Shown: positions 6,215 through 14,421 of the stretch, one piece after another
Layout: each line of letters starts with the position of its first letter
How positions within the stretch are numbered: the stretch's first letter is position 1
Origin: Anaerolineae bacterium
GTDB lineage: Bacteria > Chloroflexota > Anaerolineae > B4-G1 > SLSP01
Length of the DNA: 19,039 nucleotides
Direction of reading: 5' to 3'
Assembly (NCBI GenBank): GCA_016927095.1
Contig: JAFGNI010000056.1
Span: 1-19,039 of the forward strand
Notes under the pieces: model-generated
Seen by the model: only the letters and a program-made list of their open reading frames with translations
Database searches by the model: none
Told to the model about the DNA's origin: nothing
Made by a program: the position numbers and the translations under genes

Positions 6215-7234
6215 GTGTTTCTGCTAAGTGATTGGTTCTGGCCCATTGTCGCAGGTGTGCTGGCTGTGCTATGGCTCTGGACGCTGATTCGGTGCCAGCC
6301 GAAGCGGTCGAAAACCGAACCGGCGCAGTCCCGACGAGTATTGGAACGTCGAGAGGCAGAGGATCTGCTCAAGGTCGTCTACACGCTAGAGGCACAGATA
6401 GGCGACGTCAGCGTAGAGGCACTGGCGCGCAATCTACATCTTTCTGAGGCAGCGGTTAGCGAACAGCTTGATGCGCTCTCCGACCTTGGCTGGATCATCA
6501 AGGAGGCAGAGGGCGGACTCCGCTTAATGGCGGAGGGGAGGCAACGTGCCAGGGATCTGATCCGAGCGCATCGGCTCTGGGAACGCTATCTGGTAGATCG
6601 AGAGGGGATGGCGCTAGACGTGGTTCACGCCGAAGCCCATCACCGTGAGCACGAGGCAACCCCGCAGGAGATTGCGAGATTGGACGCCGAGCTTGAGCAT
6701 CCAGCCTGGGATCCCCATGGGCACGTGATTCCGGCGCCAGGCAGCCGGCTGCCTGCCACCGATGCACGCTCGCTCCTGGAAGAGGGTAAATCGGGCAGCC
6801 GTCTCCGCATTACGCAGCTTGAAGAAGAGCCTTCAGCATTGTTAGCCCAGCTTGTTGCACTTGGGCTCAAGCCAGGCGTGGAGATAGAGATCCTAGAGCG
6901 GGAATCGAACTTGATGCAGGTGGCGCTTCATGGTAACACCGTGCCCTTGGCCAACCCCGCTGCCCGCCGCATACACGTGGTGCCGGTTCCCGCTCTGTCA
7001 GTACCGCTAGGGGAGCTGCCAATCGGCAGTCGGGCACGTGTGGTTGACATTAAGGGTAGCGGGAAGCATCAGCGGCGTCTGCTGGATCTGGGGTTTGTGC
7101 CCGGCGCAGAGATCAGCGTGGTCCGCCAGGCACCTCTGGGTGACCCTGTTGAGTATCGCGTCAAGGAGACAGCCGTCGCGCTTCGCAAGGAAGACGCAGG
7201 TACCGTCTCGGTTGAGGAGCTTCATAGTGACTGA
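6215..7234 (+). CDS. Membrane-anchored DtxR/MntR-like regulator fused to two FeoA domains
   Basis: This 339-residue protein combines parts usually encoded separately. Residues 7-27 are a single hydrophobic helix followed by basic residues, predicting an N-in membrane anchor with the rest in the cytoplasm. Residues about 45-100 form a winged helix (VSVEALARNLHLSEAAVSEQL). Residues 101-175 match the DtxR/MntR metal-binding and dimerisation region, including HAEAHHREHE and DPHGHVIP, where DtxR has E-A-C-R-W-E-H and C-P-H-G-N. Two FeoA-like SH3 domains follow, at about 185-258 and 262-337 (PLGELPIGSRARVVDI and RLLDLGFVPG). It starts at GTG 6215 with GGAG seven bases ahead and overlaps feoB by 8 bases, so it may act both as metal-sensing regulator and as the missing FeoA partner. 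Direct DNA binding from the membrane is inference. Confidence 0.82.
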   Translation: MFLLSDWFWPIVAGVLAVLWLWTLIRCQPKRSKTEPAQSRRVLERREAEDLLKVVYTLEAQIGDVSVEALARNLHLSEAAVSEQLDALSDLGWIIKEAEGGLRLMAEGRQRARDLIRAHRLWERYLVDREGMALDVVHAEAHHREHEATPQEIARLDAELEHPAWDPHGHVIPAPGSRLPATDARSLLEEGKSGSRLRITQLEEEPSALLAQLVALGLKPGVEIEILERESNLMQVALHGNTVPLANPAARRIHVVPVPALSVPLGELPIGSRARVVDIKGSGKHQRRLLDLGFVPGAEISVVRQAPLGDPVEYRVKETAVALRKEDAGTVSVEELHSD

Positions 7235-9296
7235 GAAAAGCCCCATTGTCGTAGGTATGGCCGGCAATCCCAATGTGGGCAAGAGTGTCATTTTCAATGC
7301 CCTCACTGGCGGCAGGCAACACGTCGGCAATTGGCCAGGTAAGACGATCGAGCGCGCCGAGGGCGTCTTTTACCACGGTGATCAGGAGATTCGCTTGGTG
7401 GATCTGCCCGGTACCTACAGCCTGGCTGCCCAATCACCTGAGGAGGTCGTTGCCCGAGACTACATCGTGTCCGATGAACCTGCGGTAGTGGTGAACGTTG
7501 TCGATGCCACAAGGCTAGAACGCAACTTGAATCTGACGCTTCAGATAGTAGAGCTAACCGCTAACGTCGTCGTCGCTCTGAACCTGATGGACGAGGTCCG
7601 GCGAGAAGGATGGGAGATCGACGTGGCGGGTCTCGAGGCGGCTCTGGGTGTGCCTGTGGTGCCTATGGTCGCGATTGAGGGGAAAGGCCTTCCCGAACTG
7701 ACAGAAGCGATCATAGCCGTGGCGGATCGATCTCGGCAGACGCGTCCGATTTCCGTTAACTACGGTCTGTCTATTGAGGGCTATGTTCGAGAATTGATCT
7801 CAGATCTGGAAGGCCTGGGTGTCGACGGACATGGGCACTGGATAGCGCTCAGGCTGCTGGAGGACGATCCGGAGATTGTTGCCGCATTCCAGCAGGGAGA
7901 TCTCACCGGTTGTTGCCTCAAAGAGGAGGTGTCACAGGTCTCACCAAGTGCCTTGCAGGCCGTACTACGAAGGGCTGCACGCATGCGAGAGGCATCACAT
8001 CCAGACGCCCATGTCGAGATTGTGCGTCGCCGCTACGAGTTGGCCCACGATGTGGTGTACCGGGTGATGCATCGCATACGACCTGCCGAGGAGAGCCTGA
8101 CCGAGCAGATCGATCAGATTGTCACACACAGGATCTGGTCGTGGCCCATTACCTTGGCGGTCTTCGTTGCTATTTTCTGGATTACCATCAAGGGCGGGGA
8201 GATCGGAGGCGCATGGCTGGGGACGGGCCTCTCCTGGCTCACAAGCACTGCCCGAGTTTGGTTGAGAAGCATTGAGGCTCCGTGGTGGGTGACCGGCGCC
8301 TTGGTAGATGGTTTTGTTGTCGGCGTCGGTACGGTGATCACCGTGATGCTGCCTCCTATGATGATTCTGTTCATTGGTTTCGCCCTGCTGGAGGACCTGG
8401 GCCTTTTGCCGCGAATCGCGTTCAACCTAGATCGCCCTATGCAAGCCTTGGGGTCCCAGGGTAAGCAGACCTTGACCTGGGGTATGGCATTTGGCTGCAA
8501 TGTCACGGGTGTCATGGCCTCACGCATCATTGAGAACGAGAAGGTCCGATTGACAGCTATTCTCACCAGCCCTCTGATCATTTGTAGTGGGGGTTACGGC
8601 GCGGGGACCGCGTTGGTGATCGCGCTCTTCGGCGACCGTGCACTGCCGGTCATGTTGAGCCTCGTTTTCCTCAGCCTTGGGGCCGCTTCCCTTGCAACGT
8701 GGACGCTGAATAAGACCATCTTTCGGGGCGAACCCGGTGGTTTTGTGCTGGAGATGCCGCCCTACCGGAGGCCAAAGTGGGGACAGGTCGTCTGGCGAGC
8801 GTTGGTAGATCGCGTGGTGCACACGATGTGGCGGGCGGTGCAATTTGCAGGTCCTGCCTCCCTCATCATCTGGATGCTGGGCAATTTCCCACCCGGCGCA
8901 CCGTTTGAGCAGACGCCCATTGGCTGGTTGGTGCGCATGCTTGCGCCGTTGGGTCGCCCCTTCGGTCTGAACGGCGAGATGCTGACCGCCTTACTCTTCA
9001 CGCTACCGGCCAAGGAGATCGTCGTGCCTGCGTTGGCGATGACCTATGGACTCCAGACCAGCCTTGTGGAATCCGAGGGCGTGTTGGCCATGCTGCCGCA
9101 GGTATGGACGCCATTGTCGTCGTATGCGTTCATGGTTTTCTTTATGCTCTATCTGCCCTGTTTAGTCACGGTGTGGGCGATATGGCGGGAGACCCGCAGC
9201 GCCAAATGGATGCTGATGGGGATTCTCGTACCCCTGTTGACAGCTAGCGCGATCACATTCCTGATCTATCAGGGTGGATACTGGCTGGGGTTCTGA
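7227..9296 (+). CDS. feoB: FeoB-family ferrous iron (metal) transporter
   Basis: This 689-residue protein has an N-terminal G domain and a C-terminal membrane permease. G1 is GNPNVGKS (13-20), the switch I region holds VGNWPGKTIE, G3 is DLPG (59-62) and G4 is NLMD (119-122), all typical of FeoB. A helical linker follows, then multiple hydrophobic segments from about residue 305. The permease keeps the FGCNV core (around 423) but reads GCNVTG instead of GCNVPA. The later conserved S-C-x-A-R-L-P-V-Y gate is replaced by PLIICSGGYGAG (449-460). GTG 7227 is chosen because GAGGAG lies seven bases ahead; the frame is open further upstream, but that part overlaps the regulator gene. FeoA is supplied as two domains of the preceding protein. 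Divergence at the gates leaves room for a metal other than Fe(II). Confidence 0.9.
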   Translation: MTEKSPIVVGMAGNPNVGKSVIFNALTGGRQHVGNWPGKTIERAEGVFYHGDQEIRLVDLPGTYSLAAQSPEEVVARDYIVSDEPAVVVNVVDATRLERNLNLTLQIVELTANVVVALNLMDEVRREGWEIDVAGLEAALGVPVVPMVAIEGKGLPELTEAIIAVADRSRQTRPISVNYGLSIEGYVRELISDLEGLGVDGHGHWIALRLLEDDPEIVAAFQQGDLTGCCLKEEVSQVSPSALQAVLRRAARMREASHPDAHVEIVRRRYELAHDVVYRVMHRIRPAEESLTEQIDQIVTHRIWSWPITLAVFVAIFWITIKGGEIGGAWLGTGLSWLTSTARVWLRSIEAPWWVTGALVDGFVVGVGTVITVMLPPMMILFIGFALLEDLGLLPRIAFNLDRPMQALGSQGKQTLTWGMAFGCNVTGVMASRIIENEKVRLTAILTSPLIICSGGYGAGTALVIALFGDRALPVMLSLVFLSLGAASLATWTLNKTIFRGEPGGFVLEMPPYRRPKWGQVVWRALVDRVVHTMWRAVQFAGPASLIIWMLGNFPPGAPFEQTPIGWLVRMLAPLGRPFGLNGEMLTALLFTLPAKEIVVPALAMTYGLQTSLVESEGVLAMLPQVWTPLSSYAFMVFFMLYLPCLVTVWAIWRETRSAKWMLMGILVPLLTASAITFLIYQGGYWLGF

Positions 9297-9314
9297 TTGG
9301 GAGGGAGGCTACGG

Positions 9315-10058
9315 ATGTTTGACAATGCTCTGGGAGCTGTGATATTGACTAGCTTTCTTGCGTGTCTGGTCACGACGATCGGCATCTACGTCATCAGCCA
9401 ACACGAAAGATGGGGAAGGGAGCACGCCGCTTACTTCATGAGCTTCGCGGCGGGTGTGCTGATCGCTGTATCGTTTATGCACATCATTCCCAAGTCGTTT
9501 GAGATGCGTGACTCAGCGCCTGTTGCCCTGTTGGGGGGGTTCCTCGGCATCTACCTGCTCAACCGTTTTGTGAGGCTGTATGTCTGCCATGACTATCAAG
9601 GTGCCGAAAACTGCGACTACGCCGTGGGCATCATCCCGATGCTGGGCATTGGCTTTCATTCTTTTGTCGATGGTGTGATCTACTCCGTGACTTTCAACGT
9701 CAGCATCTTCACGGGGGTGTTGGCGGCTGTGGGGATGGTGCTTCACGAATTCCCCGAAGGGATTGTGACCTTCGTGCTCCTAGAGCGCGCTGGCTTCGGT
9801 CGCAAGCGATCAGCCCTCTATGCGTTCCTGGCGGCTGCGCTCTCAACCCCGTTGGGCACGGTGGTCTCCTTTCCGTTCATAGAGAACATCGACCGTTCGA
9901 TGCTCGGCGGCATGCTCGCCGGCTCCGCCGGTGCCCTGGTCTACGTGGGGGCTTCGCATCTGTTGCCGGCGGTGGAGACCGAGAACCGGAAATACACGAT
10001 CTTCGCGTTAGTTGCGGGGGTTCTGGTGGCTCTCGGAATCCTAGCGTCAAAAAGCTGA
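9315..10058 (+). CDS. ZIP-family divalent metal transporter
   Basis: This 247-residue integral membrane protein carries both ZIP signature helices: HSFVDG (115-120) in TM4 and HEFPEG (144-149) in TM5, whose His, Asp and Glu residues form the binuclear metal centre in ZIP proteins. About seven to eight hydrophobic segments are visible. The loop after TM3 contains a Cys/His-bearing segment (CHDYQGAENC) rather than a long His-rich loop, which could be a metal-sensing site. The start at ATG 9315 follows GGGAGG (9303-9308) by six bases, 18 bases after the feoB stop, so it belongs to the same operon. ZIP proteins move zinc, iron or manganese into the cytoplasm; the company of FeoB and a DtxR-like protein favours iron or manganese. 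Direction and substrate are not proven. Confidence 0.9.
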   Translation: MFDNALGAVILTSFLACLVTTIGIYVISQHERWGREHAAYFMSFAAGVLIAVSFMHIIPKSFEMRDSAPVALLGGFLGIYLLNRFVRLYVCHDYQGAENCDYAVGIIPMLGIGFHSFVDGVIYSVTFNVSIFTGVLAAVGMVLHEFPEGIVTFVLLERAGFGRKRSALYAFLAAALSTPLGTVVSFPFIENIDRSMLGGMLAGSAGALVYVGASHLLPAVETENRKYTIFALVAGVLVALGILASKS

Positions 10059-10329
10059 GCTGGCTGAGTCACTGGCGCACACTACCGGGCATCCGCCTCT
10101 CGGGCAGTCGCACTTGAGCACCCAGGCATCTTCTGGGAAGCGCGACTAAGCCCTGACATCCAGGGATCCGCGCAGACGCACAATTCCGTATGCCAGGTGG
10201 GCTGCGTAGGTTCCCGGAAGAGCCCCGTATCTGCTCCGACATTGCCTTCGCGGTCGCTCGTGCTGGACTGTCGTTAAGGAGACGTGGAATTCTCTGTGCC
10301 ACATGCGCCCTCGTGAAAGGAGGAGCTGG
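10059..10329 (+). other. Non-coding gap between the metal-uptake operon and the telA-like gene
   Basis: This 271-base gap contains no frame with family-like content and no convincing sigma-70 promoter or T-tailed terminator. The only structure seen is a short CCCAG...CTGGG hairpin near 10120-10136. The strong AAAGGAGGAG ribosome-binding site for the next gene lies at its right end (10316-10325). The gap is the longest apart from the pheS leader and separates two functionally unrelated gene groups, so a promoter for telA is expected here but was not recognised. Confidence 0.5.
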
Positions 10330-11213
10330 ATGGTTGACAGGTCCACATCCCCAGAGCGTCTTCAGCCGCCCGAGCCGGTCGAGGTTGTCAAGGCTAAGGA
10401 CGTCGACGAGATGCTGCCCCTGAGTTCAAAACCCGACACGCAAACGTTGGCTCAGATAGATGCCCGGGCTGTCCTCAATAGCCTGCGCCACGGGCAGGAC
10501 GCGCTCCGCAAGGATGTTGCTGCGATCGAGCAGGAAAAGGTGAACCTGTGGGAGATCATGCGCGAGCTCCAGAAGGTGATCCACGCTTGCCGTCAACTCG
10601 ACACCGCGCTGGGATTCCGCCTTGCCAAAATCGGGGTTGAGGATGCCGAGAAGGGACGGATCGTCAACGAAGAGGTGCTCTTTTACGTTCGCCAGAAGGA
10701 ACAGGACCTCCTCACGCAGCTCGCCGTCAGTGTCCAGGGATATCTCGCCCTCGATGTGATCCGCAAGAATAACCTGGAGCTGATCAAGGGGTGGAGCGCG
10801 CCACCACGACGACCATCTCCGCTCTGCGGACCGCTGTGATTGTCGCGCAGGCGCTCTCCAGCCAGAAGTTAGTGCTCGACCAGATCTCGGCGCTCGATAC
10901 GACCACCGGGGATCTCATCGTGTCCACGTCGTCGATGCTCCAGCAGCAATCCGGTGAGATCCACGAGCAGGCGACCTCAGCCACCGTCGATATGGCGCAG
11001 CTCCAGACGGCCTTCCAGAACGTCTTCCAGACGCTGGATATGATCAGCGACTACAAGGTCGCGGCCCTCGAGCGGATGACGCACACGATCGGCGCGCTGT
11101 CAGGTGAGGTTGAGCGGGCGGCTGCCTATCTCGATCGCGTCCGCACTGAGCAGGCGATTGAGAGCACCGATGACCTGCTCTTGCTGGAGGGTGAAGGTCT
11201 GCTGGACGGGTAA
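10330..11213 (+). pseudogene. TelA-family toxic anion (tellurite) resistance protein, interrupted by a frameshift
   Basis: Two adjacent frames together encode one TelA-like protein. The first (10330 onward) contains LGFRLAKIGVEDAEKGR, then EEVLFYVRQKEQDLLTQLAV and DVIRKNNLELIKG. The second, entered at 10791, continues as VERATTTTISALRTAVIVAQAL, QKLVLDQISALDTTT and DMAQLQTAFQNVFQTLD. In intact TelA proteins these blocks are contiguous. The join lies at a run of four G (10788-10791): one extra G would restore the frame and give about 294 residues. Without it the first frame ends at 10839 after a short nonsense tail. Bacillus relatives are longer (about 360-390 residues), so the N-terminus is also short. 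ATG 10330 follows AAAGGAGGAG. A sequencing or assembly error is as likely as a true mutation. TelA proteins are coiled-coil-rich, and their biochemical role is unclear. Confidence 0.85.
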
Positions 11214-11230
11214 CAGGTGGGGTAACGGAG

Positions 11231-12628
11231 ATGCAGCGCACGTCACCGAGGCCGTCTGTGGAGGCCCAGGCACTGTCGGCGCTCTATCGTCAGGCAGATG
11301 GTCCCCGGTGGCTGCGCGCCGAAGGCTGGCCCGGTGAGGGCGATCCCTGTTCATGGTATGGTGTGACCTGTGAGTCGGGTCGGGTCGTCGAACTGAGCTT
11401 GCCCCGCAATCGTCTGGCCGGCACACTTCCCTCGGATATCGGCCTGTTGGCCCATCTGCGCTACCTTGATCTTGCCGACAATCGTCTGGCGGGGCGGATC
11501 CCTGCGGCGCTCGGCAATCTGCGTCACCTCGTCACGCTTGATCTCTCGGACAACGCGTTGCACGGTCCGCTGCCGGCGCGGTTGCGCCTGTTGCGCCATC
11601 TGCGCGTTCTCGATCTGCACGGCAATGCCCTCAGGGGCGCGATCCCATCCAGCTTGCGCGACCTGCGTGCGCTGGAGAAACTCGATCTGTCCCGCAATCG
11701 CTTCACCGGTGACGTGCCACCTGAGCTAGGGCGTCTTATGCGGTTGGTCTCCCTCTCCCTGGAGGACAATCCCCTCAGTGGACCGCTGCCCCTGACTTTG
11801 GTCCAGCTCAAGGCGTTGGCGCGTTTTTCTTTCAACGGGACCAACCTCGTCGAGCCGCCTGACGTCGCATTTCAGATATGGCTTGCAGGCATCGACGACC
11901 TGTCTCACACCGGAGCCCGGCAAGCTGAGGTCATCGCGCCGGGCCGCATTGGACTTGCTGCCTTAGCCGGCCTTTCGACCCTAGACGCTACGGCTGCCAC
12001 GGCCTGGCTGGTGCTCCTGCCGCTCCTGGGCCCGCTTGCCGGCCCTATCGTGGGCGTGCTCTCGACGCTCGGTGGGACCGCGGGGGCCGGCCTGGTTGCG
12101 CGCAAGGTCTATGAGCTGTCGCGAGGACTGACCGCCCGCGGAGTGCCTCCCGACGGTCGCGCCGCGGGCGATGCTGCATCTGGGGATGGGCCCGGCGCAG
12201 TCGCACTCCGTGCCGAGCTGGCTGAAGAGCTCCGAAAGCTGGTGTGGGCGGCCCGCCCCGACCTGCCGGCGGACGTTGCTATGCGCCTGAACGCGATTGA
12301 GGAGATCTTGCTTAGCATCCTGCCGCGCCTCAAGCGCCCGGCGAGCGGTGAGCGGGATGCCTATCTCGTCCGCCAGACCATCCGAGACTACCTGCCCGAG
12401 GCGCTGGCGTTCTATCGCGCCCTGCCGACTGACTTTGACTTTGCGGTCAGTTCTCCCATCCGCGGCGACGAGACCGCTCACGATGAGCTGCTGCAACAGC
12501 TCGACCTGTTGCTGCGTGTGCTACGGGAGATCGACGCCCGGCTTGACCAGGCCGACGCCGACCGGCTCCTGATTCACGGTCGCTTCCTCAGAGAGAAATT
12601 CGAGGCGGGTGACGACACCCAGCCGTGA
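11231..12628 (+). CDS. Plant-type LRR protein with hydrophobic hairpin and C-terminal XpaC-like domain
   Basis: This 465-residue protein has an unusual layout. Residues 12-47 resemble the plant LRR cap (ALSALY, two tryptophans, then DPCSWYGVTC). Residues 52-195 are six regular 24-residue plant-specific repeats of the form LxxLdLsxNxLxGxiPxxL, with a degenerate seventh at 196-219. A glycine-rich hydrophobic stretch (about 239-290) could form a membrane hairpin. Residues 300-325 are a Gly/Ala/Asp linker. The C-terminal part (326-460) is helical, and TIRDYLPEALAFYRALP resembles the I-x-x-Y-L-P-x-x-L-x-x-Y core of XpaC-family proteins, common neighbours of TelA in Bacillus. No signal peptide is visible, so the LRRs are probably cytoplasmic. 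It starts 17 bases after telA, preceded by AGGTGGGG about 10 bases upstream. The XpaC similarity is inference from motif recall. Confidence 0.75.
   Translation: MQRTSPRPSVEAQALSALYRQADGPRWLRAEGWPGEGDPCSWYGVTCESGRVVELSLPRNRLAGTLPSDIGLLAHLRYLDLADNRLAGRIPAALGNLRHLVTLDLSDNALHGPLPARLRLLRHLRVLDLHGNALRGAIPSSLRDLRALEKLDLSRNRFTGDVPPELGRLMRLVSLSLEDNPLSGPLPLTLVQLKALARFSFNGTNLVEPPDVAFQIWLAGIDDLSHTGARQAEVIAPGRIGLAALAGLSTLDATAATAWLVLLPLLGPLAGPIVGVLSTLGGTAGAGLVARKVYELSRGLTARGVPPDGRAAGDAASGDGPGAVALRAELAEELRKLVWAARPDLPADVAMRLNAIEEILLSILPRLKRPASGERDAYLVRQTIRDYLPEALAFYRALPTDFDFAVSSPIRGDETAHDELLQQLDLLLRVLREIDARLDQADADRLLIHGRFLREKFEAGDDTQP
11384..11815 (+). repeat. Six in-register 72-bp coding repeats (LRR units)
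   Basis: These six units of exactly 24 codons lie inside the LRR gene. Each places leucines at fixed positions with an invariant N in the DN/RN/GN/HGN turn and a G-x-x-P step characteristic of the plant-specific LRR class. The DNA copies are diverged, so this is an old protein repeat rather than recent tandem duplication. Confidence 0.85.
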
Positions 12629-12637
12629 CCCTTTCCC

Positions 12638-14383
12638 TTAGGGATACCGGAAGATCCGGGCGCGGACCCAGCAGGCCTGGTTGTCTGTGCCGTCGTCGCC
12701 CGCCTCGACCTGCAAGATGACGTTCGCCGTCTCACCTGCGTAGGAGGTAAGATCGGCCCGCAGGATCTCGATGCCCTGACGGTAGCTATGGCGTTCTGAT
12801 GCGATCCACTTGCCGCCAGACTCACTCAGGATCAGCATGACCCGATAGGTGACGTCGGCCTCAGTCGCGCCCTCGAGGAGACTGACCGCCGCTTCGAAGT
12901 GATCGCCGGGCTCGATCACGTAATCGGGATCACCGAGATCCTCGTACTCGCCACGCACGATGCCGCCGGCAACCTGGCGCGGATGCGTCTCAAGGCAGAG
13001 TCCCTGGATTGCGCTTCCTGTCTCCAGCGTGCCCCCGGTGAGGCGGGCGTAGGCTTGATCTCCATCCGGGCTACCGGGCCAGGGGATATCCGCAGGGGGT
13101 GGCCCACCAATCCAGTTCGCCATCCCGGCGTTGGCCACAAAATCGAAGACGACCTCGGGGGCGACCACGGTTGCAGATTCCTCTAGAAGGTTGTTGTCCT
13201 CCTCGGACTCCACCACGATGTCGGTGGTGTCCACCTCGACGGTGGTCACCAGGTCAGCATAGGCAGCGCTGTAGGCCACGGCGGTACAGCTTAGTTCCCG
13301 GGTGTCCCCAGCTTCCAGCCCCGTATCGATCTTCCATTGACAGGCAGGCCTTGACGCCGTCTTGAGTCCGCGCCAGGCTACGACGAAGACGCCGCTGTCG
13401 GCATCGCCCTGATTCTCGATCTCGATGGTCGCGGTGACAGGCAGATGGGCGACCGGCGTCGTGGGCACGAAGGTGACGGAGAGCGGCACCAAGTCGGGCC
13501 GACCATCGTCGCAGGTGACGCCGACGGTGGTCTGGAGGCTCGCGATCTCGTCGTCGTCGGCGTCCAGGGCCGTCAGGGTGATCACCGCCAGACCGGACGG
13601 CGGGTCGGTCCAGGTGTAGGTGGTCGTGTTGGCGCTCAAGTTGACGTCCAGGTCAGGGCCGCTCAACCGGTAGGCGCTCTCCCCCCTGCCGTCCACCCAG
13701 CTCACGATGACCGACTCGCAGTCCTCCAAGACGACACCAAACAAGCTCCCCGGCGCGCTAGTACCTTCCTCAGTGGGAGCGGGGGAAGGTGTCTCGTTGG
13801 CTTCCCCGGGCACAACGATCTGCACATAGAAGACGCCGCCATAGCGGCGTCCATCTGGCGTCTCGAGTTGCCAGTTGCTGCGATACGTCCCGGGCTCGTC
13901 TGGCGCTGTCATCTCGACGGTCAGCTCGATTTCTTGGTCAGGTTCTGTGCTAGGCACAGCGATGGCGCCTTCCTCGCTGAGATCGTCACCAGAGAGGTAG
14001 GCAAAGGTGGTGCCCAGCATCCAGGGGCAGGTGCCGCTGTTGCGGATGCGCCACGTTTTCTCGAAGCTCTCTCCGGCGGGGACCACTGTGTCGTCGGGGA
14101 TGGTCACGTCAGCAACGTATGCGGCGCGATAGGTGCAGTCCTCACCCTCGATATCCTCTCCCGGTGTTGGGGTCGGCGTCGGGAGGATAATGGTTTCCTC
14201 TTCTTCCTCAGCCCTCGCCGTCGCGGTCGACGTCGCAAAGGGAAGCGCTGTGTTAGTGGCCTCCGGTGTTGGCGAGGTCCCCTCTGCCGGCCCTCTCAAG
14301 AGCGCGGGGAAGTTGCACGCAAGCGCCACCATCACCAACAGCAACGCGCATGCCCACCGGCAATGCCTAGTTCGTTGCCTCAT
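12638..14383 (-). CDS. Secreted lipoprotein with NBR1-type Ig-like and CARDB-like domains
   Basis: This 581-residue protein begins with a basic stretch and a hydrophobic helix ending in VALAC, giving a likely lipid-modified Cys23. The -3 residue is Ala rather than the preferred Leu, so lipidation is probable rather than certain. A Thr/Pro/Glu-rich linker with a PTPTPTP run (to about 80) leads to an NBR1-type Ig-like domain (83-191: TWRIRNSGTCPW, GTYRSNWQLETPDG). A second beta domain follows (212-291), then a CARDB-like domain (295-408: NQGDADSGVFVVAWRG, VDTTDIVVESEEDNN) and an unassigned beta-rich C-terminal domain with two cysteines (412-581). It probably acts at the outer face of the cell in adhesion or protein-protein contact. 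ATG 14383 follows an AGGAGGCAGGAG site. The gene converges on the LRR gene with 9 bases between stops and diverges from tgt. Confidence 0.82.
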   Translation of the reverse strand: MRQRTRHCRWACALLLVMVALACNFPALLRGPAEGTSPTPEATNTALPFATSTATARAEEEEETIILPTPTPTPGEDIEGEDCTYRAAYVADVTIPDDTVVPAGESFEKTWRIRNSGTCPWMLGTTFAYLSGDDLSEEGAIAVPSTEPDQEIELTVEMTAPDEPGTYRSNWQLETPDGRRYGGVFYVQIVVPGEANETPSPAPTEEGTSAPGSLFGVVLEDCESVIVSWVDGRGESAYRLSGPDLDVNLSANTTTYTWTDPPSGLAVITLTALDADDDEIASLQTTVGVTCDDGRPDLVPLSVTFVPTTPVAHLPVTATIEIENQGDADSGVFVVAWRGLKTASRPACQWKIDTGLEAGDTRELSCTAVAYSAAYADLVTTVEVDTTDIVVESEEDNNLLEESATVVAPEVVFDFVANAGMANWIGGPPPADIPWPGSPDGDQAYARLTGGTLETGSAIQGLCLETHPRQVAGGIVRGEYEDLGDPDYVIEPGDHFEAAVSLLEGATEADVTYRVMLILSESGGKWIASERHSYRQGIEILRADLTSYAGETANVILQVEAGDDGTDNQACWVRARIFRYP

Positions 14384-14421
14384 AGCTCCTGCCTCCTGGC
14401 GGTCCGCCGCCGTCGACATAA

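Follow-up and report, generated by a model that had tools for sequence, protein, structure and literature searches.

In a 19,039-nt stretch of DNA from an Anaerolineae bacterium (the whole of which is referred to here as the window), a telA gene is directly followed by a gene for a 465-aa protein that combines a plant-type leucine-rich repeat (LRR) array, a probable membrane hairpin and a helical C-terminal tail. This gene pair is real and conserved. We class it as a TelA/XpaC-type module that rests on a portable tail domain. With slightly better than even confidence, we read the gene as encoding the membrane partner of TelA in a TelA/XpaC-like module, a partner that gained its N-terminal plant-type LRR in an Anaerolineae-type lineage.

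The XpaC-TelA pairs (xpaC-yaaN in Bacillus, lmo1966-1967 in Listeria) likewise join TelA with a small membrane protein. Among the core sigma-W operons of B. subtilis, an excerpt of PMC3498285 includes xpaC-yaaN; excerpts of PMC12791056 describe Listeria lmo1966-1967 as resembling XpaC and TelA, and cite the greater nisin and tellurite sensitivity of a telA mutant. In Lactococcus, an XpaC-like gene of uncertain role was mutated in a bacteriocin-selected strain, according to an excerpt of PMC7864038. Compared with these operons, telA comes first in the pair described here, the partner carries an N-terminal LRR, and the kinship of its tail with the XpaC family (PF10112) is suggestive. A search of the open-licence literature for TelA or toxic anion resistance together with leucine-rich repeats gave no title on this layout among the matches listed.

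The LRR-hairpin-tail protein and its locus

The gene for the window protein (11231..12628, plus strand) was defined from its open reading frame, Pfam matches, homologues and an AlphaFold model. Because 12 homologous protein clusters share the LRR-hairpin-tail layout, we ruled out a chance open reading frame. The plant-type LRR array with a cap that an earlier note on this DNA had described was borne out. The protein matches LRR_1 (E 5.5e-21), an LRRNT_2 cap occupies residues 11-47 (11261..11371, plus strand; PF08263, E 2.5e-5, over its cut-off), and 24-residue repeats of the form LxxLxxLxLxxNxLxGxIP, the plant type, extend over residues ~51-210 (11381..11860, plus strand), with LxLxxN at 55, 79, 103, 127, 151 and 175. 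The sole cysteines of the protein are a C-x6-C pair in the cap (C40/C47). In a sequence search of the PDB, the array matched plant receptor ectodomains, and the best structure matches of the model were plant LRR proteins, including the SERK1 ectodomain (4lsc, TM by target 0.81). The window protein thus has the 24-residue repeats, the LRRNT cap and, by prediction, nearly the fold of SERK-type ectodomains; unlike SERK-type proteins, it has no signal-like N-terminus, and a hairpin and tail replace the transmembrane helix and kinase.

The glycine-rich hydrophobic hairpin region of the same note is likewise present by hydropathy and predicted helices. This probable membrane hairpin spans residues ~238-301 (11942..12133, plus strand), within which hydropathy passes the threshold at residues 255-280 (26 residues) and AlphaFold places low-confidence helices at 240-249, 253-265 and 268-301. 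The tail domain follows at residues 321-461 (12191..12613, plus strand), with modelled helices at 321-344, 347-366, 375-396 and 416-461, and resembles stand-alone proteins encoded near telA. From alignments, we placed a VR-x5-YLP motif at residues 380-389 (12368..12397, plus strand), which also occurs at residues 127-136 of the XpaC protein P0158. In the AlphaFold model (36-row alignment, mean pLDDT 83.7), the LRR solenoid is confident, the hydrophobic region at ~240-301 is poorly predicted and the helical tail is mostly confident, with pLDDT per 10-residue block of 82-98 up to residue 450 and then 75. A 6-bp tandem repeat at 12431-12442 gives two extra residues (DF) that are missing in 12 other aligned rows.

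The window telA is damaged or mis-assembled. Its first piece (10303..10839, plus strand; PF05816 TelA, E 5.5e-24) and its second piece, the C-terminal part in another frame (10791..11213, plus strand; PF05816, E 4.8e-30), align with positions 101-216 and 218-332 of the 332-position Pfam profile, and the first 100 positions are unmatched. By blastp against the intact TelA of locus L001, the first piece aligns with residues 37-75 and then 181-291, and the second corresponds to 292-426 at 68%. Relative to this reference, ~105 residues are absent after the N-terminal stretch, and the frame switches near 10790. The spacing between telA and the LRR gene is 17 nt.

The loss of ~105 aa and of the frame could mean that the locus is decaying, with the module out of use here and the LRR gene a passenger. 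We consider this very unlikely. The reading frame of the LRR gene is uninterrupted, and another contig encodes a protein 99% identical to its product (the nearest relative, P0001, has 463 aa). In addition, telA is full-length in the fusion loci L081, L083 and L084 (near full-length by Pfam in the last two, as it also is in L010), and we therefore take the damage in the window to be local or an assembly fault.

On the same strand 5′ of telA, the window carries metal genes (6215-10058) for an iron-dependent repressor with a FeoA domain, FeoB and a ZIP transporter; the genes upstream of telA in L001 differ from these. The gene after the LRR gene (12638-14419, minus strand) encodes an NBR1-type Ig-like domain (PF16158) and CARDB. 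Promoter and terminator scans gave no signal above chance.

Conservation of the telA-LRR pair

Using residues 205-465 as the query, with scoring limited to the 7,998 candidates sharing most words, we recovered 14 protein clusters: 12 of LRR-tail proteins, 42-99% identical to the window protein over these residues, and two of histidine kinases with a C-terminal tail. When P0006 was used as the query, 154 of 396 Anaerolineae genomes were matched, among the matches listed nearly all via the LRR part alone; a near-full fusion was found, again among the matches listed, in at least four of the 396 (G001, G315, G353 and G202). In each of these genomes, telA immediately precedes the fusion gene, in the same orientation. 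A survey of related genomes for this pairing had been set in advance as a test, and what had been noted in the window, telA beside an LRR protein with a hairpin and a distinct C-terminus, proved to recur in every near-full fusion. In one case (L082), telA is known from a 58-residue C-terminal match at the contig edge, and a TelA profile search of that genome (G315) gave no match. The two genes are separated by 3 nt in L081 and by 16 nt in L083 (measured from the most upstream start), and they overlap by 4 nt in L084.

Some telA clusters contain p370, an SBP/vWA protein and a hairpin protein (L010, the Sphaerotilus plasmid L111 and the Variovorax plasmid L116), and the last gene of these clusters encodes a stand-alone member of the same tail family. 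By comparison, the tail of the fusion regions is joined to an LRR, and the surroundings of the four LRR fusions, as far as they were read, yielded no homologue of SBP/vWA or p370.

Among plasmid records, nine matched the LRR protein, the best eight of the nine through its LRR part (query up to residue 233). With these eight plasmid matches confined to LRR sequence, and with no match to the L010 stand-alone tail in 50,697 phage records, we rejected a reading of the gene as phage or plasmid cargo. A TelA scan of viral contigs gave four loci.

Predicted topology

Judged from sequence features, the LRR is probably cytoplasmic, which is our first choice, and the main rival is export. If exported, the LRR would belong to an outward receptor with a cytoplasmic TelA-docking tail, a plant receptor minus its kinase, and the hydrophobic region would be a single anchor. 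The 26 hydrophobic residues of the window protein suffice for one such span, the nearest folds of the LRR are plant ectodomains, and the C-x6-C pair of the cap is kept in 13 of 15 fusion proteins. The Laminin_G_3 domain that stands before the tail in the protein of locus L168 also speaks for export, since lectin-like domains of its type are often extracellular.

However, none of the 15 fusion proteins has a hydrophobic, signal-like N-terminus (19-residue mean at most 0.84), and the hydrophobic region over threshold measures 36-48 residues in the other 14. The cap cysteines are reduced to one in P0008, and the relative in L083 has none, which counts against export, as does the hairpin-like N-terminus seen both in the modelled XpaC protein and in stand-alone tail proteins. 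We consider export unlikely, and an extracellular ligand-binding role for the LRR is doubtful because a signal-like N-terminus was found in none of the 15 proteins. The cytoplasmic placement that we prefer would fit the arginine or lysine found near both hairpin ends in most aligned stand-alone proteins, as expected if both ends are cytoplasmic.

The tail domain outside the LRR fusions

When the tail was searched by tblastn against 80 loci selected by telA alone, it matched hairpin proteins mostly 205-240 aa in length. Stand-alone tails occur in Pseudomonadota, Verrucomicrobiota, Thermodesulfobacteriota and Chloroflexota. By HMM, the tail is present in 17 of the 80 telA loci, and 13 of these 17 also have SBP-vWA and p370 homologues; in 59 of the 80, mostly Psychrobacter, none of these three is nearby. 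The telA genes of these 59 tail-less loci (L002-L078) are close to the window telA. The L010 stand-alone protein has 427 relatives, and the best 120 of the 427 are without a Pfam domain or informative name.

Of 261 Chloroflexota genomes, 17 contain a match to the tail model, and TelA was found in 27 at E 0.001 and in 21 over the cut-off. Tail and TelA over cut-off occur together in 16 of the 261 (Fisher p 2e-20); the remaining tail genome, G906, has no TelA match. In 12 of the 16, the two lie on one contig and one strand with the tail downstream, at a distance from the TelA domain of 99-480 bp in 11 and of 1.7 kb in G002, where an SBP-vWA gene stands between them. Tail and TelA are on different contigs in the other genomes (G793, G849, G863 and G877). 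Complete reading of five regions (L163-L167, of which two come from closely similar genomes) showed a stand-alone tail gene directly after telA every time, in the slot of the window LRR gene. Two consecutive tail copies stand just after telA in L069 and L061 (L167). A smaller Anaerolineae draw gave the tail in 1 of 150 genomes and TelA over cut-off in 2 of 150; one of these two, G119, has TelA and no tail.

Five further tail copies were found in four Anaerolineae genomes (G265 twice, G356, G322 and G340). TelA scored over the cut-off in each of the four, on another contig in all but G340, whose copy is the one of the five with telA near the tail (in the order telA, SBP-vWA, tail). The expectation that the tail is encoded beside telA, as XpaC is, held in the window, in all four fusion genomes and in 12 of the 17 Chloroflexota tail genomes, and it failed for four of these five further copies.

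Other tail proteins share the C-terminal domain and differ in their N-terminal parts. The 660-aa protein of L168 (G265:C27, 2116-4098) has Laminin_G_3 at residues 84-235 (28.5 bits versus a cut-off of 27.6) and then the tail at 509-657, with no telA within the 7.4 kb read. P0013 (750 aa) and P0014 (719 aa) are histidine kinases (HisKA_3, HATPase) with the same tail at the C-terminus; a kinase query matched 375 of 396 Anaerolineae genomes, and none of the matches listed spans kinase and tail. Because it is joined to an LRR, to Laminin_G_3 (one case) or to a histidine kinase (two cases), the tail is portable. In a tail tree of 43 rows, which leaves out L168, 14 of the 15 LRR tails fall into one weakly supported group (70/76), and L083 lies outside. 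Both kinase tails and L116, a long branch, are also placed in this group.

Relationship of the tail to XpaC

We judge a distant kinship of the tail with XpaC to be somewhat likelier than its absence. The C-terminus had been called XpaC-like in the earlier note; its best profile match, a shared motif and a shared helix order suggest this, whereas a PF10112 match was not obtained and the other profile set-ups gave probabilities of 0.06%-51%. The tail may instead be unrelated to XpaC, an independent helical TelA-linked domain with convergent size, hairpin and operon slot, and the LRR fusion would then be a TelA system without XpaC. We hold this to be possible, though on the doubtful side.

The Pfam searches favor the independent-domain account: PF10112 matched none of the tail proteins scanned. 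Neither the window protein (up to E 10; cut-off 29.8 bits) nor eight stand-alone tail proteins gave a match (up to E 10 for L010, L016, L077, L059 and two from L069, and up to E 1 for L116 and L111), and a weak match to the kinase P0013 (17.2 bits) does not involve its tail. The profile also matched none of 61 Chloroflexota genomes, none of a set of four genomes and none of six mixed genomes. In 14 control genomes, PF10112 matched Lactococcus alone, and TelA matched B. subtilis too; because xpaC is a B. subtilis gene, searches with PF10112 may miss real XpaC proteins.

For profile-profile comparison, we drew XpaC sequences from genomes of Pseudomonadota (22 of 299 exceeded the cut-off) and from the best 120 of the 232 relatives that a protein search returned with six of these sequences as seeds. 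The best result came from comparing 12 rows of LRR tails with 45 XpaC rows, with a probability of 70.5% and E 3.9e-5 over 127 collinear columns; the score of 38.7 was reached in none of 60 column shuffles (maximum 21.9), and the reversed profile scored 23.1. Against the same 45 rows, the stand-alone tails gave 36% (E 3.8e-4) and the pooled LRR and stand-alone tails 42% (E 2.6e-4), again with 0/60 shuffles as high. Against the 21 genome XpaC sequences, the LRR tails gave 49-51% and the stand-alone family 8-16%.

Several set-ups scored weakly, and chance scores come easily to helical proteins, which is in keeping with an independent domain. In a tool comparison, tail and XpaC aligned over 165 columns, hairpin on hairpin, with E 0.0016 and a probability of 16%, and the LRR alignment gave 11% over 104 columns. 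Domain-only profiles gave 2%, and their score of 19.3 was exceeded by the highest-scoring of 100 shuffles (22.0). With XpaC split into two subgroups, all probabilities were ~5% or less (lowest 0.06%), and 1, 2, 2, 2, 3 and 55 of 60 shuffles scored as high, the 55 coming from the domain-only profile against one subgroup. Against an unrelated tail stand the collinearity of the matches, one of which includes the hairpin, and the VR-x5-YLP motif shared at the same place, a pattern chosen post hoc.

The XpaC family as sampled here (a Pseudomonadota-derived set rather than Bacillus or Listeria) resembles the tail in its hairpin, helix order and, mostly, YLP motif. The model of XpaC P0158 (mean pLDDT 79.6) has helices at 8-28 and 33-51 (the hairpin), 62-93, 97-119, 121-150, 156-181 and 188-204. 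The tail model has the same helix order, with one long helix replacing the last two of XpaC, and in each model helix three of the domain carries VR-x5-YLP. The window protein therefore has the XpaC-type layout of a membrane hairpin, here at low confidence, and then a helical domain with YLP in its third helix. A loose YLP pattern, picked after the alignments were seen, occurs in 131/133 tail-family, 116/120 listed XpaC and 8/21 genome XpaC sequences. A PDB search with the XpaC model gave no match under E 0.001.

Gene neighborhoods also speak for kinship: in some loci tail and XpaC occupy the same slot behind an SBP-vWA gene. XpaC follows a homologue of the L010 SBP-vWA protein (28-30% identity, ~500 aa) in 5 of the 22 XpaC loci, these five being picked because such a neighbor was visible, and a p370 homologue is also present in three of the five. 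In L145, the protein preceding XpaC carries Pfam SBP_bac_11 and VWA; the tail gene likewise follows SBP-vWA in L010 and L172. By tblastn, with flanks of ~1.5 kb, telA lies near 9 of the 22 genome XpaC loci, and one locus missed by this search (L131) has Pfam TelA and TerC as neighbors.

Discussion

In the mechanism that we favor, hairpin and tail would correspond to the stand-alone ~205-aa protein encoded after telA elsewhere, probably a distant XpaC relative. The hairpin would serve as the anchor of the fusion protein in the cytoplasmic membrane; on the cytoplasmic side, the tail may form a docking site for TelA, and the LRR, which probably lies on this side as well, may bind a protein or other ligand. 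The TelA complex could in this way be placed or switched through LRR recognition, and other tail proteins would use Laminin_G_3 or a histidine kinase where the LRR stands. More speculatively, and in our view rather unlikely, the tail is a portable TelA-docking plug with swapped recognition parts, and its LRR form a bacterial receptor that would detect a protein linked to damage or to an invader and, in response, drive TelA at the membrane.

TelA has been linked to nisin and tellurite tolerance and stands in an operon with XpaC in Bacillus and Listeria. That a naturally occurring fusion has stayed next to telA singles out the tail as the part likely to contact TelA, and the LRR of this fusion offers a bait for whatever the TelA system recognises. 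The unnamed tail family, which extends over several phyla, is a possible counterpart of XpaC. Our results suggest that the addition of the LRR joined a recognition module to a poorly understood envelope-stress pair.
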